The translations under genes and the position numbers were made by a program. Source: an uncultured Vicinamibacterales bacterium (GTDB lineage Bacteria; Acidobacteriota; Vicinamibacteria; Vicinamibacterales; UBA8438). Taken from it: a stretch of DNA of 64,000 nucleotides. This document shows positions 6,289 to 56,939 of this stretch, piece after piece. The number at the start of each line of letters is the position of its first letter. The stretch's first letter is position 1. The notes under the pieces were generated by a model that saw only the letters and a program-made list of their open reading frames with translations, was not told the DNA's origin and did no database searches. The stretch covers positions 3,248,001 to 3,312,000 of the forward strand of contig OY282382.1 of assembly GCA_958295905.1 (NCBI GenBank). Direction: 5' to 3'.

Positions 6289-7278
6289 ATGAACCATGGA
6301 ATGCTCGCCGCAGCCGGGGGTCTGGCCGTGCTGGCCGTCTTGTCTGCGCCGGTTGCCGTGTCGGCCCAGAGTGAGACGGAGGCGCCGCGGACGGCCTGGG
6401 GAGACCCCGACCTGCAGGGGGTCTGGGACTTTCGGACGATCACGCCGCTGCAGCGTCCCGAGGAACTCGGCGACCAGGCGTTCCTGACCGCGGAGGAAGC
6501 GGCCAATCAGGAACAGGAGGTCGTGGAGCGGAACGCCCGGTTGTGGAACGAGGCCGCCCGCCGGACCGAGGCCGGCGGCAACGTCGGCGCCTACAACAAC
6601 TTCTGGATGGACCGGGGCACCCGGACGGTCGGGACCCGGCGGACGTCGCTCATCGTGGACCCGCCGAACGGGCGCATCCCGCCGTTGTCGGAGGCGGGGC
6701 AGGCGCGGGCCGACGCGCGGGCCGAGTATCGGAGCGAGCACCCCGCCGACTCTTGGGCGGACCGCAGCGTCGGCGAGCGTTGCGTGCTCGGGTTCAACTC
6801 GGGACCCCCGATGGAGCCGCGCGCCTACAACAACCACATGCAGCTCTTCCAGACCGCCGGCCACGTGGTCATTCTCAACGAGATGGTCCACGACGCGCGC
6901 ATCATCCCCCTGGACGGCGGCGCGCTGGCGGAAGGGGTGACCCAGTGGATGGGGGACTCCCGCGGGCGCTGGGAGGGCGACACGCTGGTCGTCGACACGA
7001 CGAACTTCTACAACAAGAACTCCTTCACCGAGCGCTACGGGGCGACCACCGCGATGAGCCTGGTGGAGCGTTTCACGCGCGTGGACGCCGAGACGCTGCT
7101 CTACGAGTTCACGGTCGAGGACCCCGCGACCTGGACCCTGCCGTGGACGGTCGAGGTGCCGATGCTGCGCTCGGACGATCAGGTCTGGGAGTACGCGTGC
7201 CATGAAGGCAACTACGGGATGGACGGCATTCTCGCCGGCCACCGCGCCGAGGAACGCGATGCGGCGCAGGACCGGTAG
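6289..7278 (+). CDS. Secreted GDSRG-family protein, paralogue A1
   Basis: The protein has 329 residues with a clear signal peptide (residues 1-27, cut after VSAQ). It has the family hallmarks WGDPDLQGVWD near residue 40, IVDPPNGRIPPL, HDARIIPLDGG, GDSRGRWEGDTLVVDTTNF and EDPATWTLPWTVE. I know of no described activity. The family is abundant in Acidobacteriota and usually sits beside DUF6152 proteins, as here. The start is fixed by aggagg 7 bases upstream. Its closest relative in the window is 53068-54096. It heads a tight operon to 9863. Conserved acidic and His positions could bind a ligand or metal, but that is speculation. Confidence 0.85.
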   Translation: MNHGMLAAAGGLAVLAVLSAPVAVSAQSETEAPRTAWGDPDLQGVWDFRTITPLQRPEELGDQAFLTAEEAANQEQEVVERNARLWNEAARRTEAGGNVGAYNNFWMDRGTRTVGTRRTSLIVDPPNGRIPPLSEAGQARADARAEYRSEHPADSWADRSVGERCVLGFNSGPPMEPRAYNNHMQLFQTAGHVVILNEMVHDARIIPLDGGALAEGVTQWMGDSRGRWEGDTLVVDTTNFYNKNSFTERYGATTAMSLVERFTRVDAETLLYEFTVEDPATWTLPWTVEVPMLRSDDQVWEYACHEGNYGMDGILAGHRAEERDAAQDR

Positions 7279-8479
7279 GGGCTCGCGCCGTGGAACGGCG
7301 GGGACCGCCGCAGGGTTGGCCGGGCGGGGGGCGGAGCCGCAAGGCGGCGTTTTCCGGGCTGCCTTCCTGCGCGGTTTCCTGGTCGTCTGCACCGCGGCCG
7401 GCGTCCTGGGTCCCGCCGTCCCCGCGGCGGGGGCTCAGGACCATCCGGGCGCCGAGCCGTACCGGCGGGTGTGCGAGCTGTGCCACGGGGCGGGCGGGCG
7501 CGGCGACATCGCCCCGGGGCTGGTCCCCCTGGGCTTCGACGCCGAGTACGTGCTGGCCGTGGTGCGCGAGGGCTACAGCCAGATGCCCCCGATCTCGACG
7601 CGCGAGCTGACCGACGACGAGGTGCGGCAGGTCGTCGGCTATCTCGAGGTCCTGTCGAGCCCGTCGGCGGAAACGCCGGCGGGGGCGACCCCCGACCTGC
7701 CGTCGGCCGCCGCGGCCCCGGCCGGCTCCGCGCCGTCCGGGGCCGGGGGAGAGCAACCTCCGGCCGCCGGCGCGTCCGGCTACGACGGACCCCGGACCCC
7801 CGAGGGGCGGCCCGACCTGAACGGCTTCTGGCAGGTGCTGAACTCGGCGGCTTGGGACATCCGCCCCCACAACGCCCGGGACGGCGTTCCGGCCGGCCTC
7901 GGGGTGGTCGAGGGGGGCGGCATCCCCTACCAGCCGTGGGCGGCCGAACAGCAGCAGGAGAACCAGGCGAACCGGCTGACCGCGGACCCGGTGCGGCAAT
8001 GCTATCTGCCGGGGGTCCCGCGCATCACCTACATGCCCTTCCCGTTCCGCATCCTGCACACCCCCGACCACGTGGTGATCACCTACGAGTTCGCCCACGC
8101 CGTCCGCATCATCTACACCGACGGCAGTCCGCATCCGTTGCCGAACGACTTCTGGATGGGCGACTCGCGCGGGCACTGGGAGGGCGATACGCTGGTGGTC
8201 GACACCACCCACTTCAACGGGCGCACCTGGCTCGACGCGGCCGGCAACTTCCACAGCGACGCCCTGCACGTCGTCGAGCGCTATACCCCGACGACCCCGT
8301 ATCACATCGACTACGAGGTCACCATCGAGGATCCCAACGTGTTCACCCGTCCGTGGACGATGCGGATGCCCTTGTACCGGCGTGTGGAAGAGCGGCTGCA
8401 GATTCTCGACTACGACTGCGTCGATCATCTCCTGCAAGCGGCGGTCGAGGGCCGGCAGGAAGAAGAAGGAGACCGGTGA
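7259..8479 (+). CDS. Cytochrome c domain fused to a secreted GDSRG-family domain
   Basis: The protein has 406 residues from ATG 7259, which overlaps the previous gene's end by 20 bp. A long basic N-terminus precedes a hydrophobic export segment (FLRGFLVVCTAAGVLG). A class I cytochrome c domain follows with haem motif CELCH and a likely distal Met in GYSQMPPIS. After a Pro/Ala-rich linker comes a full GDSRG-family domain (PDLNGFWQVL, CYLPGVPR, GDSRGHWEGDTLVVDTTHF, EDPNVFTRPWTMRMPLYRR). The linked haem suggests that the family domain takes part in a periplasmic redox reaction. The paralogue 54098-54913 has the same C-terminal domain without the cytochrome. Confidence 0.85.
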   Translation: MRRRTGRGSRRGTAGTAAGLAGRGAEPQGGVFRAAFLRGFLVVCTAAGVLGPAVPAAGAQDHPGAEPYRRVCELCHGAGGRGDIAPGLVPLGFDAEYVLAVVREGYSQMPPISTRELTDDEVRQVVGYLEVLSSPSAETPAGATPDLPSAAAAPAGSAPSGAGGEQPPAAGASGYDGPRTPEGRPDLNGFWQVLNSAAWDIRPHNARDGVPAGLGVVEGGGIPYQPWAAEQQQENQANRLTADPVRQCYLPGVPRITYMPFPFRILHTPDHVVITYEFAHAVRIIYTDGSPHPLPNDFWMGDSRGHWEGDTLVVDTTHFNGRTWLDAAGNFHSDALHVVERYTPTTPYHIDYEVTIEDPNVFTRPWTMRMPLYRRVEERLQILDYDCVDHLLQAAVEGRQEEEGDR

Positions 8480-9435
8480 TGAACCTTCGATCGCTCGCGT
8501 GCGCAGCGGCGGTGCTGCTCGCCTCGGCTGCGGCCCCGGCCGCCTTCGCCGGCCAGGACCGCGGCTATGAGCCCCCGCGGACGCCGTGGGGCGACCCCGA
8601 CTTCCGCGGCCACTATCTCCCCGGCCGGTCCCAGCCGATGGAGACCCCCGCGAACGATTCGTGGCGCCCGCCCGAGGGGGCCAACCTTGGGCAGGGAGCG
8701 GCGTTCTCCCGGTTCTTCGAACCCGACCCGGATGCGCCGCCGCGCCCGGGGCGCGTCACCACGCCGATGGTCGTCGACCCGCCCGACGGTCGTATTCCCC
8801 TGTTGCCGTGGGCGGCCGAGCGCCGGGGCGAGGTGATGGCGCGGCAGGACGAGCTGGAGCATCTCGACCCCCGCGTGAAGTGCCTCCCGGCGGCGCTGCC
8901 CCGAGCGCACCTGCCGGTCGGCTACAACACCTACCAGATCCTGCAGGTTCCCGGGTACGTCGTCATGCTCTACGAGTGGAACCACCACTCGCGCTACATC
9001 CCCCTCGACGGCAGCCCCCATCCCGACCCCGAGATCCGTCTCGGCATGGGCGACTCGCGCGGCCACTGGGAGGGGAACACCCTGGTCGTCGACGTCACCA
9101 ACTTCACCGAAAACACGTGGCCGGTGGGGCACGGCGCGCCCCCCGAGGGGGTGCCGGCGAGCGCCCTCGCGACCGGACACGGGGTGTTCCACAGCGGCGG
9201 GCTGCACGTGGTCGAGCGCTTCACCCTGGTCGACGACGACACCATCCGCTACGAGGCGACCATCGAGGACCCCGAGGTCTTTTCGCAGCCGTGGACCATC
9301 AGGTTCGACGCGCTGCGCCGGGCGCCCGACGATCACATGCTGTTCGAGTACGCCTGTCACGAAGGCAACGGGCGGAACCTGTCGCTCATGACCGGCGCCG
9401 ACCTCGATGACGTGCGGGTGAACCCCATCAGGTGA
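8479..9435 (+). CDS. Secreted GDSRG-family protein, paralogue C
   Basis: The 318-residue protein has an Ala-rich signal peptide (residues 1-25, ending AFAGQ). The family core is visible: TPWGDPDFRGHYLPG, VVDPPDGRIPLLPWAAER, KCLPAALPRAHLP, GDSRGHWEGNTLVVDVTNF, HVVERFTLVDDDTIRYE and EDPEVFSQPWTI. The ATG shares one base with the preceding TGA (8477-8481), so translation is coupled. It differs from its neighbours by an extra loop (about 20 residues) after the TNF motif. Activity is unknown. Confidence 0.85.
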   Translation: MNLRSLACAAAVLLASAAAPAAFAGQDRGYEPPRTPWGDPDFRGHYLPGRSQPMETPANDSWRPPEGANLGQGAAFSRFFEPDPDAPPRPGRVTTPMVVDPPDGRIPLLPWAAERRGEVMARQDELEHLDPRVKCLPAALPRAHLPVGYNTYQILQVPGYVVMLYEWNHHSRYIPLDGSPHPDPEIRLGMGDSRGHWEGNTLVVDVTNFTENTWPVGHGAPPEGVPASALATGHGVFHSGGLHVVERFTLVDDDTIRYEATIEDPEVFSQPWTIRFDALRRAPDDHMLFEYACHEGNGRNLSLMTGADLDDVRVNPIR

Positions 9436-9440
9436 GACCG

Positions 9441-9863
9441 ATGCGAAAGATTGAAACCTCGTTCATCGCCATGGCCGGCGCCCTCGTCCTGCTGGCGCCG
9501 GCCGGATCGGCGTCCGCCCACCACGCCTTCTCGGCCGAGTTCGACGCCAACCGGCCGTTGCAGCTCACGGGCACGGTGGCGCGCACCGAATGGATCAATC
9601 CCCACTCGTGGATCCACGTCGACGTCACCGGCGGCGACGGCACGGTGACGACCTGGGCGATCGAGTGCGGCGCGCCCAACTCGCTGATGCGGCGCGGGCT
9701 GAACAAGAACTCGATCCCGGCCGGCACCGAGCTGGTCATCGACGGCTTCGGGGCCAAGGACGGGTCGAACACCGCGAACGCGCGCGACATCACCTTCCCC
9801 GACGGGTCGCGTTTCTTCGTCGGGTCGTCCGGGACCGGCGCGCCGTACGAACGCGGCCGCTGA
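9441..9863 (+). CDS. Secreted DUF6152 protein, copy 1
   Basis: The 140-residue protein has a signal peptide ending SASA, followed at once by the DUF6152 hallmark HHAFSAEFD, then EWINPHSWIHVDV, IECGAPNSLMRRG and the C-terminal FPDGSRFFVG. The N-terminal HH after cleavage is striking and could be a metal ligand (a 'histidine brace' style end is possible but unproven). It is the last gene of the operon, 6 bp after the previous stop. A GTG at 9432 is an alternative start, but ATG 9441 gives a better leader. Confidence 0.85.
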   Translation: MRKIETSFIAMAGALVLLAPAGSASAHHAFSAEFDANRPLQLTGTVARTEWINPHSWIHVDVTGGDGTVTTWAIECGAPNSLMRRGLNKNSIPAGTELVIDGFGAKDGSNTANARDITFPDGSRFFVGSSGTGAPYERGR

Positions 9864-10063: not shown

Positions 10064-10330
10064 GTGGGCCTGCGTGCCCGCCTGCTCCGGTTGCTCGAAT
10101 CCATCGAGAACGTCGGTCTGGAGGCACTCCCCGAGCCCCATGCCAAGCATCTCAGCGGCAAGCTCTGGGAGTTGCGGGTGAGAGCCCAAGGGGGAATCGC
10201 GAGGGGGATCTACGTGACGAAGGCCGACCACCGCGTTGTGATCCTGCATGTCTTCGCGAAGAAGTCACGAAGGACGCCGCTTCGGGCACTCGCAATCGCC
10301 AGAGAACGTATGAAGCAGGTGACGCCATGA
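10064..10330 (+). CDS. HigB/RelE-type toxin (phage Gp49-like), start codon apparently lost
   Basis: From GTG 10064 this gives 88 residues with the Gp49/HigB2 pattern: GLRARLLRLLE, EPHAKHLSGKLWELRV, GIARGIYV and FAKKSRRTP. These toxins are mRNA interferases acting with the ribosome. Homology-like sequence clearly continues upstream in frame (GWTVETHSAVDSEIETLP) to ATA 10007, just after a TGA. The natural start was probably an ATG now reading ATA, or ATA is used inefficiently. The end overlaps the antitoxin start by 4 bp, the usual toxin-first arrangement. Confidence 0.75.
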   Translation: MGLRARLLRLLESIENVGLEALPEPHAKHLSGKLWELRVRAQGGIARGIYVTKADHRVVILHVFAKKSRRTPLRALAIARERMKQVTP

Positions 10331-11008: not shown

Positions 11009-11308
11009 TCACGGAGCAGCTGCTTCCAGCGGGCGGATCTTCCGCAGGGATCGTGCGGCGGCCGACTCGGCCAGTGCGAGCTCGTAGCCGGTCTGAAGGT
11101 TCATCCAGCTCTGTGCGTCGGTGCCGAAGTACTTCGCCAGCCGCAGTGCCGTCGCCGCCGTGATGCCGCGCCGGCCGCGCACGATCTCATTGATGCGCGC
11201 CGGTGTCACGCCGGTCGCTTTCGCGAGCGCAGTCGACGACAATCCAAACGGTTCCATGAAGTCGTGCTTCAGGACCTCGCCGGGGTGCACCGGCTGCAAA
11301 CGGGTCAT
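11009..11308 (-). CDS. higA: HigA-type antitoxin
   Basis: The 99-residue protein has the HigA/VapI signature: PVHPGEVLKHDFMEPFGLS, then a helix-turn-helix (TALAKATGVTPARINEIVRGRRGIT) and LRLAKYFGTDAQSWMNLQTGYEL. It binds and neutralises HigB and represses the operon. It follows the toxin gene by 12 bp on the same strand, the canonical higBA order. The locus looks intact, unlike its neighbour at 10064-10557. Confidence 0.9.
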   Translation of the reverse strand: MTRLQPVHPGEVLKHDFMEPFGLSSTALAKATGVTPARINEIVRGRRGITAATALRLAKYFGTDAQSWMNLQTGYELALAESAAARSLRKIRPLEAAAP

Positions 11309-11320
11309 GGGCTCATTCCT

Positions 11321-11599
11321 TCAGTGGTAGTCAACGATCTCGGCATCGAACGCGCTTCCATCCCGGAAGCGAAAACAGAGCCGCCACTGGTCGTTGATCC
11401 GTATGCTGTACGAACCGTGCCGCTCGCCCCTGAGCGACTCGAGACGATTTCCCGGCGGTACCCGCAGGAAGTCGAGCGTCGCCGCGGCATCCAGTTGCGC
11501 CAGCTTGCGTTGCGCGACGCGCTCGAAGGCCGCGAATCGCCGCACGCGGTACCCGGCGGCGAGTCGCTCCGTATCCCTGCAACGGAAGCTCCGAATCAC
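11321..11599 (-). CDS. higB: HigB-type toxin (mRNA interferase)
   Basis: The 92 residues fit HigB/RelE: IRSFRCRDTERL at the N-terminus, AQRKLAQLDAAATLDFLRVPPGNRLESLRG in the middle and SIRINDQWRLCFRF with DAEIVDYH at the end. HigB toxins cleave mRNA at the ribosome. It is first in the operon with higA, and its start is 8 bases from the AT-rich candidate operator at 11607-11624. All family landmarks are present, so it is probably functional. Confidence 0.9.
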   Translation of the reverse strand: MIRSFRCRDTERLAAGYRVRRFAAFERVAQRKLAQLDAAATLDFLRVPPGNRLESLRGERHGSYSIRINDQWRLCFRFRDGSAFDAEIVDYH

Positions 11600-12993: not shown

Positions 12994-15057
12994 CTACCGC
13001 AAGGTGAAGGCGACCAGCTCCGCGATTCTCTCCTCATCCAAGGCCGCCACGACCAGGTACTGCCGGCCGCCCGCCAGGTACGTGATCGGGAACCCGGTGG
13101 TTGGTCCACCCGGAAGCGGAATCTCATGGACGACGTCACCCGTGCGCTTGTCGTACGCGCGGAGAACCGGAGCGCCCCGTTGTCCTTCGCCCGCGAACAG
13201 CAGGGTGGACGTCACGAGAAGTCCGGAGCTCTGCGTGAGAATCCCGGTCTGCGGCACGTTCACGCCCTGGAGGTCCGGATGCCGCCGGATATAGGCGGGC
13301 GTCTCGCCGTGCGGGATCTGCCACAGAATCTCTCCCTCGGTCAGGTCGATCGCGGTGATCCGGCCGTAGGGAGGCTTCAGGAGGGGCAGGTCGCGGACGG
13401 TTGGGACACCCCGGGAGAACGAGATGTGGTAGCGCACGCCGGTCCCCTCGGCGCCGTTGGTCAATCCGAACAGCGTCGGCCTCGTCTGCGACGGCACGAA
13501 GAGGAGACCCGTCTCGGCGTCCACCGCGCCGGCCGGCCAATTGACGCCGCCGCCCGCGCCGGGGAGCCCGAGGGTCCCGAGATTGACGCCCGGCACAATC
13601 AGGGACGGCGGGGTATAGAGGGGGCCGAGCCGGAATTGCTCCACGATCCGCAGCGCCTCGGCCCGGAGCTCCGGCGTGAAGTCGATCAGGTCGTCCCGGG
13701 TGACGCCCTGGCGCTCGAACGCCGGCGGCTTGGTGGGGAAGGGCTGCGTCGGAGAGGTCCACTCGCCCGGAACGTCCGACGCCGCCGCCGCCCGCTCCTC
13801 GATCGGCCAAACGGGTTCGCCGGTTTCGCGGTCGAGCACGTACGCGAAACCCTGCTTCGAGAGTTGCACCAGCGCCTTGACCGGGGCGCCGTCGACCTCG
13901 ATGTCCACGAGGATGGGGGCGGTGGGGATGTCGTAGTCCCAGAGTTCGTGATGGGTGAGCTGAAAATGCCACACCCGCTCGCCGGTCTCCGCGTCGAGCG
14001 CCAGCACGGAGTTGCCGAAGAGGTTGTCGCCGGGTCGATAACCGCCGTAATAGTCGTTCGTGGGAGTCTCGGTGGCCACGTAGAACAGGCCGAGCTCCGC
14101 GTCCGCCGTCACCGGCGCCCAATGCCCGACGTTCCCCGTGTACTTCCAGGAGGCGTCGAGGAGCTCCGGATGCTCCTGCACCCAAGGGTGGGTGCCGGTC
14201 GGCACGTTCCAGAGGGTCTCGTCCGCCTTCAGCCAAGTCTCGACGCCGAATTCTTCCGCCTTCGGGACCGTGTTGAAGCGCCACAACATCCGGCCGGAGC
14301 GGGTGTCGTACGCCACCACGTCGCCGGGCATGTTCATGGGCCAGACCTCATTGGGTGATGCCCGGGTGGGAATGCTGCCGGTGTGCATCGAGATCGACGC
14401 CACGAGCACATTCCCGAGAATCGCCGCCGGCGACGTGTTGGCCACCCGACCCGCTCTCGCCGCGGCCGGCCGCTCGCTCCAGCGCAGGTCGTCCATCATG
14501 TCCACCGCGCCGGCCGCCCCGAAATCCTCCACGAGATTCCCCGTCCGGGCGTCCAGGGCCACCAACTGGTAGCTCGGCGTCACCACGAAGATGCGCTCGT
14601 CTCCCGCCCCGTCCGTCCAGTAGGTCACGCCGCGCCCGGCGCTCCGCGCAACCGGCTCGATGATGTCGCCCCACCGGCGCTCGTTGTCGCCCGGGTGCCA
14701 GTTCCAGATGGACTCACCGGTCGCGGCATCGAGGGCAATCACGCTGCGCTGGTTGCCGATGGTCGTATAGAGAACGCCGTTGACCACGATGGGGCTGATC
14801 TGTGTCCGGCCGGACGGCGGCGGCGAGCCCTGGTCCCGTGCGCTCCATCGCCAGGCCACCTCCAGATCGCCGACGTTGCCGGCACGAATCTCGTCGAGCG
14901 GCGAATAGCGGGTGGCGCCCGCGTCCGCCCCGAACACACCCCATTCCCCGTCGGCGGCGCCGTGCTGAGCGCTCACACCGACGGTGCCCAGACACGCGGC
15001 GGCCGCAACCGCCGCGCAACGGATCACCCAGTGCCGACCGGAATGCGTTTTACACAT
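12994..15057 (-). CDS. Soluble PQQ-dependent glucose-dehydrogenase-type quinoprotein
   Basis: The protein has 687 residues with a signal peptide ending VSAQ. It is an eight-bladed quinoprotein: GDAGATRYSPLDEI-type start, repeated ALDAxTGExxWxF blade motifs, and HHELWDYDIPTAP near residue 371, which corresponds to the catalytic Asp region of membrane glucose dehydrogenase (HHDLWDxD). It lacks the N-terminal five-helix membrane domain of Gcd and no haem CxxCH is present, so electrons must go to a separate acceptor. It would oxidise a sugar or alcohol in the periplasm with PQQ and Ca2+. No PQQ biosynthesis genes are in the window. Confidence 0.85.
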   Translation of the reverse strand: MCKTHSGRHWVIRCAAVAAAACLGTVGVSAQHGAADGEWGVFGADAGATRYSPLDEIRAGNVGDLEVAWRWSARDQGSPPPSGRTQISPIVVNGVLYTTIGNQRSVIALDAATGESIWNWHPGDNERRWGDIIEPVARSAGRGVTYWTDGAGDERIFVVTPSYQLVALDARTGNLVEDFGAAGAVDMMDDLRWSERPAAARAGRVANTSPAAILGNVLVASISMHTGSIPTRASPNEVWPMNMPGDVVAYDTRSGRMLWRFNTVPKAEEFGVETWLKADETLWNVPTGTHPWVQEHPELLDASWKYTGNVGHWAPVTADAELGLFYVATETPTNDYYGGYRPGDNLFGNSVLALDAETGERVWHFQLTHHELWDYDIPTAPILVDIEVDGAPVKALVQLSKQGFAYVLDRETGEPVWPIEERAAAASDVPGEWTSPTQPFPTKPPAFERQGVTRDDLIDFTPELRAEALRIVEQFRLGPLYTPPSLIVPGVNLGTLGLPGAGGGVNWPAGAVDAETGLLFVPSQTRPTLFGLTNGAEGTGVRYHISFSRGVPTVRDLPLLKPPYGRITAIDLTEGEILWQIPHGETPAYIRRHPDLQGVNVPQTGILTQSSGLLVTSTLLFAGEGQRGAPVLRAYDKRTGDVVHEIPLPGGPTTGFPITYLAGGRQYLVVAALDEERIAELVAFTLR

Positions 15058-52731: not shown

Positions 52732-53067
52732 TCATTATATCGAGGAACCGTCCGTCCCCCCCGCGAAACCCGACCCGAGCGCGGACTGGACTCGACGTTG
52801 CCCCACTATGCCCGATGCCCGGCCCGCGTGGAACCCGACCCCGAGCGCGGACCGGACTCTCCTCGGCGACCCGTTCAGGTCGATACGCCATCGTACCACG
52901 ACCGGCGGGACGGCGGGTGGCGCGCCCGGGGAATAATTTGGTGTCGCGGGCGGTGTCCAATTGGGTGATAATTGCGGGGGTTCGCGGCCCCGCGCGCATC
53001 GAAGTCCGGCAGGTGTCATGCGGGGGGCGGGCGGAGGGCATCCGGAGGGAGAAGAAGGAGCGTTCAG
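52732..53067. other. Divergent intergenic region with a repeat and AT-rich promoter-like patch
   Basis: It separates the decarboxylase operon (reverse) from the second secreted operon (forward). A direct repeat (cccgacccgagcgcggactg, imperfect) occurs at 52765-52793 and 52831-52859. An AT-rich patch at 52931-52975 contains gataat (52967-52972), a possible -10 for the 53068 gene, and gaagaaggag (53051-53060) is its ribosome-binding site. Confidence 0.5.
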
Positions 53068-54096
53068 ATGCTTCGTCGAGACATCGTGTCGAACGGCTGG
53101 CTGGTCGCGCTGGCCGGGCTGGGGCTCGCGGCGCCGGGCTCGGCCGCCGCGCAGGAGGCGGCCGGATCGGGCCAGGCGGCAGGAACCTACGAGGTGCCCC
53201 GGACACCCGACGGCCACCCGGATCTGCAGGGCTTCTGGTCGAACCAGACCTACACGCCGCTGGAGCGGCGGGAGGGGGTGACGGGCGCGTTCCATACCCC
53301 GGAGGAACTGGCGCTGATCGAGAGCGGCGCGGCCGGCCGCGAGAGTGCGCAGACCGAGCCGGGCACCATTCCCGACGTGCACTACGACTTCACGCAGTTC
53401 GGGCTCGACCGCAGTCAGGCGGCGCGGGCCCAGAATCTGCGCACGTCGATGATCGTCGATCCCCCGGACGGACGCCTGCCGCCGGTCAACGCCGCGGGGG
53501 AGCGACTGGCGGCGGAGCGGGCCGAGGCGCAGGCGCGGCTCGGCGGGCGGTGGGACTCCGCCGAGGCCAACCAGCTCGACGATCGGTGCATCATCATGCG
53601 CGGGGTCGGCCCCCCGCTGATGCCCAGCGGGTACAACGCCAACTACCACATCGTGCAGTCGGCCGGCCACGTGATGATCCTTTCCGAGATGATTCACGAC
53701 GCGCGTATCATCCCGCTCGACGACCCGGCGGCGCCCCCGGCGGGCGTGCGGCAGTGGATCGGGGTGTCGCGGGGGCACTGGGACGGCGACGCGCTGGTGG
53801 TGGAGACCACGAACTTCAACGGCAAGAATCCGTTCCAGGGGTCCGGCGATCGGATGACGGTGACCGAGCGCTTCACGCGGGTGTCCGACGACGTGATCGA
53901 GTACCGGTTCACGGTCGACGATCCGGGGACCTGGGATCGCCCGTGGACGGCCGAGAACCTGATGCAGAGGACCCGGGGCCCGCTGTTCGAGTTCGCGTGC
54001 CACGAGGGCAACTACGGGCTCTACAACACGCTCGTCGGCGCCCGTCTTGAAGAGCAGCGCGCCGCCGGGGAGGCGGAGCAGTCGAGGGACAGGTGA
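53068..54096 (+). CDS. Secreted GDSRG-family protein, paralogue A2
   Basis: The 342-residue protein has a signal peptide ending SAAAQ. The family landmarks are TPDGHPDLQGFWSNQTYTP, MIVDPPDGRLPPV, HDARIIPLDD, the variant GVSRGHWDGDALVVETTNF in place of GDSRG, VTERFTRVSDDVIEYRFTV and FACHEGNYG. It is the counterpart of 6289-7278 and likewise heads its operon. Start from ATG 53068 behind gaagaaggag. Function unknown; periplasmic or secreted. Confidence 0.85.
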   Translation: MLRRDIVSNGWLVALAGLGLAAPGSAAAQEAAGSGQAAGTYEVPRTPDGHPDLQGFWSNQTYTPLERREGVTGAFHTPEELALIESGAAGRESAQTEPGTIPDVHYDFTQFGLDRSQAARAQNLRTSMIVDPPDGRLPPVNAAGERLAAERAEAQARLGGRWDSAEANQLDDRCIIMRGVGPPLMPSGYNANYHIVQSAGHVMILSEMIHDARIIPLDDPAAPPAGVRQWIGVSRGHWDGDALVVETTNFNGKNPFQGSGDRMTVTERFTRVSDDVIEYRFTVDDPGTWDRPWTAENLMQRTRGPLFEFACHEGNYGLYNTLVGARLEEQRAAGEAEQSRDR

Positions 54097-54097
54097 C

Positions 54098-54913
54098 ATG
54101 GCGATGCGTACTCGGCTATCGACGATGACGCTGGCCGCCGTGGCCGCGCTGGCGGCGTCCGCGGCGGGCCAGACGTCGGAGTATCGGGCGCCTCGGGGGC
54201 CGGACGGCAACCCCGATCTCAACGGGATCTGGCAGGCCCTGGGCTCGGCCCACTGGGATGTCGAGCCGCATTCGGCGGGGCCGAGCGTGGTGCGGGAGCT
54301 GGGCGCGCTGTCCGCGGTGCCGGCCGGTCTCGGGGTCATCGACGGCGACCGGATCCCGTACACGCCGGAGGCCTTGGCCCAGCGGAACGAGAACCGCGCG
54401 AACCGGCTCGAGCGCGATCCCGCCGTCAAGTGCTACCTGCCGGGGGTGCCGCGCGGCATGTACATGCCGTTTCCGGTGCAGATCATCCAGAGCCGGGCCC
54501 ACGTCATGATCCTCCACGAGTTCGCCGGCGCCGTGCGCACGGTGTACATGGAGAACCAGATGGACGCCCCCGCCGACAGTTGGATGGGGTGGTCGAACGG
54601 GCGCTGGGACGGCGACACGCTCGTCATCGACACCACCGGCTTCAACGGCCGGACTTGGTTCGATCAGTCGGGCAACTTCCACAGCGGGGCGTTGCGCGTG
54701 GTGGAGCGCATCACGCCGCGGAGTCCGGACACGCTCTGGTACGAGGTCACCCTCGAAGACCCGAACGTTTTCACGCGGCCCTGGACGATGCGCATGCCCC
54801 TCTATCGACGGGTGGAAGAGAACGCGCGGGTTCTGGAGTTCCGATGCGTCGAGTTCGTGGAAGATCTGATCTACGGGCACCTCCGCAAGCAACCCGAGGA
54901 TGCCGGCCGGTAA
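54098..54913 (+). CDS. Secreted GDSRG-family protein, paralogue B2 (no cytochrome domain)
   Basis: The 271-residue protein has a short signal peptide ending SAAGQ and the same core as the cytochrome fusion at 7259-8479: PDLNGIWQALGSAHWD, CYLPGVPRGMYMPFPVQII, DGDTLVIDTTGFNGRTWFD, GNFHSGALRVVERITP and LEDPNVFTRPWTMRMPLYRR. The cytochrome c module is absent here, so it may use a separate electron partner such as the monooxygenase-cytochrome at 55467. It starts 1 base after the preceding stop. Confidence 0.85.
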   Translation: MAMRTRLSTMTLAAVAALAASAAGQTSEYRAPRGPDGNPDLNGIWQALGSAHWDVEPHSAGPSVVRELGALSAVPAGLGVIDGDRIPYTPEALAQRNENRANRLERDPAVKCYLPGVPRGMYMPFPVQIIQSRAHVMILHEFAGAVRTVYMENQMDAPADSWMGWSNGRWDGDTLVIDTTGFNGRTWFDQSGNFHSGALRVVERITPRSPDTLWYEVTLEDPNVFTRPWTMRMPLYRRVEENARVLEFRCVEFVEDLIYGHLRKQPEDAGR

Positions 54914-54933: not shown

Positions 54934-55344
54934 ATGCGCACGAAGCTCGCTTGTGTCGTCGTCGGGGTCGGAGTCCTGTTGGCGGCCGCTCCGGCGTCGA
55001 CCCATCATGCCTTCTCCGCCGAGTTCGATATCGAGAAGCCGTTGACGCTGACCGGCAAGCTCGTCCGGTGGGAAATGATCAATCCGCACTCCTGGTTCCA
55101 CATGGACGTCGAGGACGAGGAAGGGAAGCTGGTGCGGTGGATGATCGAGGGCGGGAGCCCGAACGAACTGATCCGGAACGGGGTCACGAAGAACACCCTC
55201 GACATCGGGATCGAGTTGACCGTCGAGGGCTACTACGCCAAGGACGGGACGCCCAAGGGCGTGGGCAGGAACTTCCTGCTCGCGGACGGCGAACGGCTGT
55301 TCCTCGGCGGGTCGGCGCCCCCGGTCGCGCCCGCCGTCCGCTAG
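54934..55344 (+). CDS. Secreted DUF6152 protein, copy 2
   Basis: The 136-residue protein has a signal peptide ending PAST, then HHAFSAEFD, the same mature N-terminus as copy 1 (9441-9863), EMINPHSWFHMDVEDEEG, IEGGSPNELIRNG and LADGERLFLG. gaggagggg lies 8 bases upstream of ATG 54934. The close repetition of gene order (A, B, DUF6152) in two places argues that these proteins work together. Confidence 0.87.
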   Translation: MRTKLACVVVGVGVLLAAAPASTHHAFSAEFDIEKPLTLTGKLVRWEMINPHSWFHMDVEDEEGKLVRWMIEGGSPNELIRNGVTKNTLDIGIELTVEGYYAKDGTPKGVGRNFLLADGERLFLGGSAPPVAPAVR

Positions 55345-55466
55345 TCCGGAACCGTCGCTTGGCGGCTCCGTCGCCGCGTTGCTGCGCAGCCGCCCAACCA
55401 ATCCTCTAGGCGTTCGCACCGTTTCGCGGGCGCATGCTTGGAATCGTGAACTGGGAGACATCGATC

Positions 55467-56939
55467 ATGCGGACCATCATCGCGGCGGCGGGTGTCATCG
55501 GAACGTGTCTGGCCGGCGCCGTCGGCGCGGCGGCGCAGGAAGTCCCGACCTACAACGAACACGTCGGCCCCCTCCTGCTCGAGAACTGCGCGAGCTGCCA
55601 CCGGCCGAATCAGGTGGCGCCGATGTCGCTGCTGTCCTACCGCGAGGCGCGTCCGTGGGCGCGGGCGATCAAGGCCAAGGTCGAGGCGCGCGAGATGCCG
55701 CCCTGGTTCGCCGACCCGCGGTTCGGCAAGTTCTCGAACGACACGAGCCTGAGCGACGAGGACGTCGCGACCATCGTCGCCTGGGCCGAGGGCGGAGCCC
55801 CGGAAGGAGCCGGGCCGGCCCCCGCCGCCCCCCGCTTCTCGGCCGCGGGTTGGAGCCACCCCGCGGGGCGCGAGCCGGACTACGTCATCGAGTTCCCGAT
55901 CGCGTGGCAGGTCGACGCCGAGGGGGAGACGCCGAACTTCAACCTGTACACGCCGTTGCCGTTCGACGACGTGATGGTGGTCTCGGCGACCCAGGTGCGG
56001 CCCGGGAACTACGCGGCGACCCACCACATCACCACCGGTCTCGTCAACATGCCGGCGGGCATGGTGCTCGGCCGGGGGGCGGCGTGGCAGGGCGGTCCCG
56101 AGGTCGACTACGTGCCGGTGCGGGACCCGAACGTCGATCCCGAAGAGGTGGCGAGGCTGACCGCGGACGGCCGCGCCCAGCGTCGTCAACTGAGCCCCGA
56201 GGCCCGGGAAGAGGCGGCGGCGCAGCGGGCCGGCTTCGGGCCGTACATTCCCGGCGTCGGCGCCGATGTGGCCCGCCCCGGCCAGGTGCGCGAGATCCGC
56301 GGCGATCTCTTCGACTACATCATCTGGAACCTGCACTATCAGGCCACCGGCAAGCCGGAGACGGCGCGGCCCTCGATCGGGGCGTGGCTGGCCACCGAGA
56401 AGCGCGCGCAGCGCGTCCGCAGCCTCGGCCTGAACGAGACCACTTCCGAAGGGATGCAACTGGTCGCGCCGCCGCCGTTGACGCCCGAGGAACGCCGCGC
56501 CCGCGCGGCGTCCCGGCAGGTGGGGCAGGGGCTGAACCCGCTGCTCGCCCCGATTCCCCCGAACGACGGGAACTGGACGGTGACGGGCGTCGGGGGCTTC
56601 CAGAACGACGCGATCATCCAGTCGATGTTCGTCCACGCCCATGTCCGGGGCAAGGACTTCACCTGGGTGCTGACGTATCCCGACGGCCGCGAAGAGGTGC
56701 TGCTGCGGGTTCCCGACTACGACTTCGACTGGCAGTTCGAGTACGAGCTGGCCGAGCCGATCCCGGTGCCGGCGGGCAGCACCGTGAAGTCGATCGCCCG
56801 CTATGACAACTCGCGCAACAACCGGCGCAACCCGGCTCCGCACAAGGAGGTCTACTGGTCGGAGCAGAGCTGGGACGACATGTATCTGACCAACGTCAAC
56901 TACACGCTGGTCGACGAGACCCCGGCCGACGACGAATAG
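55467..56939 (+). CDS. Cytochrome c / copper type II monooxygenase-like fusion
   Basis: The 490-residue protein starts at ATG 55467; ATG 55434 is an alternative. After a signal peptide (IIAAAGVIGTCLAGAVGAAAQ) comes a cytochrome-like module with haem motif CASCH and PMSLLSYREARPWA, then a domain resembling ascorbate-dependent copper type II monooxygenases (PHM/DBH): THHITTGLVN, IIWNLHYQATGKP and FVHAHVRGKDFTW provide the His clusters for two copper sites. Such fusions are common in Acidobacteriota; the substrate is unknown. It follows the second GDSRG/DUF6152 operon by 122 bp and may be its redox partner. Confidence 0.82.
   Translation: MRTIIAAAGVIGTCLAGAVGAAAQEVPTYNEHVGPLLLENCASCHRPNQVAPMSLLSYREARPWARAIKAKVEAREMPPWFADPRFGKFSNDTSLSDEDVATIVAWAEGGAPEGAGPAPAAPRFSAAGWSHPAGREPDYVIEFPIAWQVDAEGETPNFNLYTPLPFDDVMVVSATQVRPGNYAATHHITTGLVNMPAGMVLGRGAAWQGGPEVDYVPVRDPNVDPEEVARLTADGRAQRRQLSPEAREEAAAQRAGFGPYIPGVGADVARPGQVREIRGDLFDYIIWNLHYQATGKPETARPSIGAWLATEKRAQRVRSLGLNETTSEGMQLVAPPPLTPEERRARAASRQVGQGLNPLLAPIPPNDGNWTVTGVGGFQNDAIIQSMFVHAHVRGKDFTWVLTYPDGREEVLLRVPDYDFDWQFEYELAEPIPVPAGSTVKSIARYDNSRNNRRNPAPHKEVYWSEQSWDDMYLTNVNYTLVDETPADDE

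Follow-up and report, generated by a model that had tools for sequence, protein, structure and literature searches.

DUF6152 Genes and Their Surroundings

The window analyzed here, a stretch of 64,000 nucleotides from an uncultured Vicinamibacterales bacterium, carries two DUF6152 genes, referred to as copy 1 and copy 2 (Table 1). Both open reading frames (ORFs) reported in the first-pass annotation are present on the plus strand, and both products belong to DUF6152 by Pfam, with scores far above the curated cut-off of 27 bits for PF19649. Their precursors share 47% identity, along with the segments HHAFSAEFD and NPHSW; the closest named relative of copy 1, encoded at locus L043 of a Vicinamibacteria (Acidobacteriota) MAG, shows 92% identity. 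At E 0.01, DUF6152 is the only Pfam family found in the window copies, which do not match DUF1775, DUF6702 or DUF4198. A search of NCBIfam gave no DUF6152 match, and a sequence search for solved relatives returned nothing significant for either copy 1 or the DUF6152 alignment. Among the viral contigs searched for DUF6152 relatives there were five pattern matches, none of which was confirmed.

Both copies reside in operons with genes of an unnamed secreted family, for which we have coined the name PDLNG after its motif (PRTPxGxPDLxGxW ... GDSRGHWEGDTLVVDTTNF), and with genes that contain cytochrome c domains. The first-pass annotation described these operons as holding copper and heme proteins, and the heme half of that description is borne out by the Cytochrome_CBB3 match upstream of copy 1 and the Cytochrom_C match downstream of copy 2 (21.7 bits against a cut-off of 21.3). 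The copper half comes down to a sub-threshold Cu2_monoox_C match in the latter protein (11.9 bits, cut-off 23), and the evidence for a copper context is thinner than the earlier reader supposed. Elsewhere in the neighborhood, a minus-strand ORF a few kb from copy 1 (12994-15057) encodes a PQQ-type alcohol/glucose dehydrogenase (PF01011, E 6.4e-168), and small ORFs at 11009-11308 (-), 11321-11599 (-) and 10064-10330 (+) resemble, by eye, HigBA/RelE-type toxin-antitoxin genes.

Table 1. Genes and predicted features at the two DUF6152 loci; residue numbers start at His1 of the predicted mature protein.
Feature	Positions	Strand	Basis or remarks
PDLNG protein	6289..7278	+	no Pfam match
Cytochrome c domain fused to PDLNG domain	7202..8479	+	Cytochrome_CBB3, E 7.2e-12; alignment with other copies; start uncertain
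PDLNG protein directly upstream of copy 1	8476..9435	+	alignment, profile
DUF6152 gene, copy 1	9441..9863	+	140-aa precursor; ATG 9441, stop 9861-9863; PF19649, 109.6 bits
Predicted signal peptide, copy 1	9441..9518	+	26 aa, ending in A-S-A; K/R n-region, hydrophobic core, AxA before HH
Codons of His1-His2, predicted mature copy 1	9519..9524	+	direct sequence reading
N-P-H turn, copy 1	9597..9605	+	His29 codon 9603-9605; candidate second histidine ligand
W-x-x-E, mature copy 1	9654..9665	+	Trp46, Glu49; candidate second-sphere or ligand residues
PDLNG protein	52972..54096	+	alignment, profile; start uncertain
PDLNG protein directly upstream of copy 2	54104..54913	+	predicted calycin (FABP/lipocalin-like) barrel
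DUF6152 gene, copy 2	54934..55344	+	136-aa precursor; ORF; PF19649, 100.4 bits
Predicted signal peptide, copy 2	54934..55002	+	23 aa, ending in A-S-T; rival site APA/STHH two residues earlier
Codons of His1-His2, copy 2	55003..55008	+	sequence reading
N-P-H turn with His29, copy 2	55081..55089	+	sequence reading, alignment with copy 1
Cytochrome c domain with C-terminal part weakly like copper type II monooxygenases	55434..56939	+	Cytochrom_C, E 5.2e-4; Cu2_monoox_C, E 0.15

Conservation of His-His and Pro-His

The two adjacent histidines that open the segment common to both copies are found throughout the family. A main set of 252 ORFs was gathered from 246 loci, picked either by the PF19649 profile, which contains the His-His columns, or by similarity to copy 2; once identical stretches had been dropped, His-His was present in all 245 distinct ORFs. 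For a second profile the first nine mature residues were left out of the training, which makes ORF finding with it, alone among these steps, independent of His-His. Re-detection with this blind profile in a set of 268 distinct ORFs, comprising the main set and later-fetched loci with shorter ORFs permitted, recovers His-His in 267 and the later Pro-His likewise in 267, the sole exception being an ORF cut by the end of the fetched stretch. All of these counts cover the fetched loci, a minority of the listed matches from which the weakest (two genomes, E 5e-9 and 3e-7) were left out. Two other samples were set aside for this purpose because of how they had been collected: the search pattern behind an 80-locus genome-collection sample demanded His-His, and the regular expression behind a 134-ORF set demanded His-His, Pro-His and W-x-x-E.

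Pairwise identity among the first 105 ORFs has a median of 47% and a minimum of 23%. In this set H1, H2, P28 and H29 are present in every sequence, followed by N27, W46, G60 and G69 (103 each) and by E49 and G18 (102 each); in a larger alignment of 308 sequences, W46 is retained in 307 and E49 in 305. When the four most divergent paralogs of the source genome (L010-L013) are compared with the two window copies, what stays invariant is His-His, PHS, W-x-x-E, five glycines and one proline of the signal peptide. Four further genomes yielded 28 matches; the 23 distinct places that were fetched from among them have both His-His and Pro-His without exception. Three of these genomes are titled Pseudohongiella or Gammaproteobacteria and contribute 18 of the 23 places (18 of their 19 matches were fetched), with both features still kept at blind-profile scores as low as 35 bits; these 18 places constitute the evidence from outside the phylum. 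The other five are in G551, which shares its match coordinates with G237, a genome from the same order as the window. The G551 record (VFZL01; loci L085 and L327), titled 'Acidimicrobiia bacterium', thus looks like a misnamed MAG. As judged from these alignments, His-His at the predicted mature start is a true and strikingly strict feature of a large uncharacterized family.

A Predicted Signal Peptidase I Site Directly before His-His

Signal peptidase I is governed by an established preference for small residues at positions -3 and -1, and a proline at -4 occupies its usual place relative to the cut. Copy 1 reads ...LAPAGSASA/HHAFSAEFD and copy 2 ...LAAAPAST/HHAFSAEFD, where the slash marks the predicted cleavage site, assigned by motif from the position-specific residue make-up of the family. 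Across the 245 ORFs of the main set, the residue immediately preceding His-His is A in 230, T in 6, G in 5, S in 3 and V in 1, so that A, G, S or T accounts for 244; position -3 is occupied by A, V, L and other small or aliphatic residues, with P in a single case. The pattern [AVSTLIGM]-x-[AGS] ends right before His-His in 237 of the 245, position -4 is proline in 189, and the contrast between a free position -2 (entropy 3.50 bits) and a nearly fixed position -1 (0.44 bits) is pronounced. Upstream, 242 of the 245 have a start codon 15-45 residues away together with K or R within the first nine residues, and a hydrophobic 10-mer is present in all 244 of those tested. The residues before His-His thus read as a classic signal peptidase I site that directly adjoins His1, and there is little doubt, on this pattern, that His-His forms the mature N terminus in the DUF6152 family. 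Export as a lipoprotein or through Tat was also considered and rejected, the lipobox pattern occurring in 4 and the twin-arginine pattern in 3 of the 245.

The first-pass annotation predicted that both copies are cut right before HHAFSAEFD, leaving a free N-terminal histidine. This is the best reading of the sequence both for copy 1 and for the family as a whole, given the near-fixed position -1 and the strictness of His-His, and in copy 1, with its A-S-A ending, cleavage at this point gains support from the close relative at L043, which reads APAAPASA/HH. For copy 2 the prediction is weaker. This copy has threonine at -1 and is among the eight ORFs that miss the -3/-1 pattern; the only other members with threonine there are five of the ten loci L184-L193 (L184, L185, L186, L188 and L189), the remaining five having A or G, and in two threonine members (TPVST/HH and TPVWT/HH) the last six residues before His-His contain no AxA. 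Because of this threonine, APA/STHH becomes a rival cut in copy 2, and cleavage before His-His is probable there with less certainty than in the family at large. The rival cut would leave an N-terminal S-T-H, a possible copper/nickel ATCUN-type motif, and slow or alternative processing is possible among the threonine members.

As a reading of the family, a cut elsewhere that removes His-His from the N terminus, whether at this position in copy 2 or after residue 5 (HHAFA/AEFD), is very unlikely. The -3/-1 pattern does fit after residue 5 in 223 of the 245 ORFs, yet the other 22 have Thr, Gln, Asn, Val, Asp or another unsuitable residue there, or proline at +1. Nor would cleavage at an alternative position account for the invariance of the -1 alanine and of His-His itself, and the frequent proline at -4 is counted from His-His.

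Predicted Fold and Candidate Ligands

An AlphaFold2 model of mature copy 1, built with 64 sequences (pLDDT 90.2, pTM 0.82), comprises strands at residues 8-26, 29-37 and 43-49, a helix at 53-58, and strands at 71-79 and 85-92. Mean pLDDT is 82 over the first ten residues versus 93-97 in the next nine blocks of ten. The top structural matches from Foldseek and VIA are the OB-folds of SSB, PriB and LysRS, and the match to PriB (Z 9.4, rmsd 2.4, 81 residues aligned) leaves residues 1-9 mostly outside the aligned OB core. Foldseek returned no match to this model at E 0.001, the best being 1.8e-3, and a viral structure library likewise gave none at that threshold, the names returned being mostly those of OB-folds. 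CusF does not appear among the 50 VIA matches listed, which is no evidence of a different fold. The mature DUF6152 protein is therefore predicted to be a small OB-fold barrel.

A mean-field coupling analysis (308 of 340 sequences after gap filtering, Neff 171) recovers the strand pairs β1-β2, β2-β3, β1-β4 and β3-β5 (19-37, 35-45, 33-47, 17-71 and 12-78), with no β4-β5 pair among the top 60. The N-terminal tail is coupled to W25 (9-25, 6-25 and 3-25), to the β4-β5 loop (5-82 and 3-80) and to the helix (3-56); these couplings are weak, ranking 17-112 of 5050 pairs with medians of 89-448 in half-samples, and they weakly suggest that the tail lies near the strand end that bears His29. Positions 1 and 2 also seemed to couple with other invariant columns, but this signal is an artifact of invariance and was discarded.

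The OB topology is well established, and when the model is read against it, the β1-β2 turn, which carries H29, and the end of β3, which carries E49, would come together at one end of the barrel. The conserved residues His1, His2, His29, Trp46 and Glu49 are candidate metal ligands. The first-pass annotation, which raised the possibility of a copper histidine brace, named a third ligand as a requirement, and at the level of sequence the invariant His29 of the N-P-H turn supplies one.

PDLNG and Other Neighbors

The PDLNG domain matches nothing in Pfam or NCBIfam, apart from sub-threshold NCBIfam matches to cytochromes in the fused copy, and a sequence search for solved relatives gave none that is significant. 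An AlphaFold2 model of the protein encoded at 54104-54913 is a barrel (pLDDT 90.1, pTM 0.86) that best matches fatty-acid/retinol binding proteins (FABP/CRBP) and NanoLuc (Z 9.4, query TM ~0.33), with no Foldseek match at E < 0.001. From this model, PDLNG proteins appear calycin-like and are likely binders of a small hydrophobic ligand.

A PDLNG gene occurs in 76 of the 80 genome-collection loci and in 49 of the 80 it is the immediate same-strand neighbor, a count made with a crude gene caller that misses some. The source genome (6.3 Mb) has 102 PDLNG profile matches including fragments, estimated to represent about 90 genes (150 of 169 candidates were scored), and a hand count puts a same-strand PDLNG gene within 1 kb of 10 of its 13 DUF6152 genes, one of these PDLNG matches being weak (E 8e-15). 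For 90 uniformly placed genes the chance of such proximity is ~2e-11, the 1-kb limit having been chosen after the data were seen. The three genes with no PDLNG gene within 1 kb (L011, L012 and L013) are all divergent paralogs.

This association makes a partner interface plausible, and it could be that His-His and Pro-His have a structural role or serve for docking to the PDLNG protein or a cytochrome, with no metal involved. Pro28 shows the same invariance as the histidines, with N27, W46, G60 and G69 close behind, as might be expected of such an interface. Docking does not explain, however, why both histidines sit at the exact cleavage site in the three paralogs that have no adjacent PDLNG gene, and we regard it as improbable.

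To survey the wider neighborhoods, 120 candidate neighbor proteins were reduced to 85 by distance and length limits and then to 58, with 27 left out as spurious-looking by eye. Searched against Pfam, these matched DUF6644 in 12 cases, PQQ dehydrogenase and DUF2214 in 6 each, and individual cytochrome c families in 2-3. The 25 families listed, of 67 for the 58 proteins, include none for copper transport, resistance or handling, and none for nickel or zinc transport. DUF6644 membrane proteins, often paired, are seen by eye near DUF6152 and PDLNG genes at L050, L055, L057, L067, L090, L092 and L111, and in the source genome a DUF6644 pair (C1:2389858-2390767) lies upstream of PDLNG and DUF6152 genes at 2390977-2392195; no paper naming DUF6644 was found in the literature searched.

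The cytochrome c domains in both operons, one of them fused to PDLNG (Table 1), are also what would be expected if the histidines ligated heme and DUF6152 were an OB-fold heme carrier or a small cytochrome, and the heme chaperone CcmE is itself an OB-fold protein. Against this, the two window copies have no CXXCH and match no heme family, and ligands on an exposed tail are unusual for heme, so that this role seems highly improbable.

A Putative N-Terminal Histidine Metal Site

The arrangement that best fits these observations is an OB-fold periplasmic metal protein with an N-terminal histidine and, most likely, Cu(II), a reading that we hold with moderate confidence. DUF6152 would be exported via Sec, and the sequence pattern strongly suggests that signal peptidase I then removes everything up to His-His. 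On the surface of the resulting small barrel, the N-terminal amine, His1 and His29 of the β1-β2 turn may form a metal site built like a histidine brace or a mono-histidine brace, perhaps joined by His2, Glu49 and Trp46, which share that barrel end in the predicted fold. We infer metal binding on good grounds from the conserved residues, and a metal site of some kind is likely. That the metal is copper, a choice that follows from the Irving-Williams order and the type of ligands, seems slightly better than an even chance, and a true two-histidine brace is somewhat doubtful. DUF6152 would have as its operon partners a calycin-like protein of the periplasm and c-type cytochromes or PQQ dehydrogenases, and its role, which is more speculative, would most likely be the holding or delivery of copper, or electron transfer, in many parallel periplasmic oxidation systems.

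The nearest parallels come from signal-strapping, which identified DUF6702 and DUF4198 as nickel- or copper-binding families with an N-terminal histidine after the signal peptide, and in which DUF6702 has a modeled tri-histidine site (His1, His28 and His32) (PMC12537917). Like these families and the anglerases described there, DUF6152 is uncharacterized and exported, with histidine at the predicted mature N terminus and further candidate ligands; unlike them, it begins with His-His and is predicted to be an OB barrel, whereas DUF6702 and the anglerases are beta-sandwiches and DUF4198 has a divergent fold (PMC12537917). The method rejects a second ligand at position 2, its authors arguing that histidines next to each other can scarcely ligate the same metal (PMC12537917). 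This speaks against a site that uses His1 and His2 together, and a family that starts with His-His might be overlooked unless H29 is noticed.

These families also bear on the identity of the metal, since the same N-terminal site could hold nickel, zinc, cobalt or iron instead of copper. DUF4198 prefers nickel and DUF6702 prefers nickel while also binding cobalt and copper (PMC12537917). The neighborhoods are in keeping with this alternative insofar as they show no copper family among those listed and the Cu2_monoox_C match is below cut-off, but nickel and zinc transport families are equally missing from the same list, and the metals are indistinguishable by sequence. A metal other than copper is unlikely, although it deserves serious consideration, and copper remains our preferred assignment.

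A second parallel is YcnI, in which an N-terminal histidine and a glutamate bind Cu(II) with a tryptophan alongside, forming a mono-histidine brace on the cupredoxin fold of the DUF1775 family (PMC8424229). DUF6152 resembles it in having nearly invariant H1, E49 and W46, as known from its alignments, and differs in its predicted OB barrel and in matching no DUF1775 profile. The OB-fold copper/silver chaperones CusF and SilF, with their His-Trp-Met-Met site (PMC10656224), are a third parallel: DUF6152 is likewise predicted to be a small periplasmic OB-fold barrel with histidine and tryptophan. In contrast to these chaperones, however, it has no methionine column conserved at 75% or more (105 sequences) and therefore is not a CusF/SilF member; by OB topology, its candidate residues would moreover lie at the other end of the barrel from the CusF/SilF site.

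The LPMOs and CopC, which contain a bis-histidine brace, have folds that differ from the OB barrel. DUF6152 shares with them an N-terminal histidine and a further histidine, a likeness read from sequence. The brace is defined by an N-terminal histidine with a further histidine (PMC10952591). In such a site the two histidines and the amino group meet in a T-shape, an arrangement at which the tail couplings of DUF6152 only hint.

It is conceivable, if far-fetched, that DUF6152 is a copper histidine-brace enzyme on an OB barrel, acting as an oxygenase or peroxygenase for small hydrophobic compounds that are held by the calycin-like partner, with electrons from the neighboring cytochrome c; the Acidobacteriota would then have tens of paralogous pairs, each with its own substrate. 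Metal sites with an N-terminal histidine are known so far on a few folds, among them those of copper carriers and of the LPMOs, which are very strong copper oxidants; DUF6152 presents the same N-terminal signature on a different predicted fold. Should the model hold, a site of this kind would have a new scaffold in the OB barrel, which differs from the cupredoxin-like or beta-sandwich folds reported for YcnI, the anglerases and DUF6702. No described function, and no paper naming DUF6152 or PF19649, was found in the main text of the literature searched, a scope that excludes bioRxiv, most subscription papers and the supplements of PMC12537917. The unnamed PDLNG partner, with its many genes in one genome, would gain a testable function if the role of DUF6152 were known.

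Distribution of the Family

DUF6152 is present in none of 14 control genomes and in 39 of 297 genomes of an evenly drawn phylum sample. Its frequency is 97 of 162 in the window's order and 42 of 151 in another class of the same phylum, that of G187. The 13 matches of the source genome compare with at least 28-30 per genome in G028, G380, G469, G480 and others, and up to 107 loose first-look candidates were seen in one genome; copy numbers are large in these expanded genomes.
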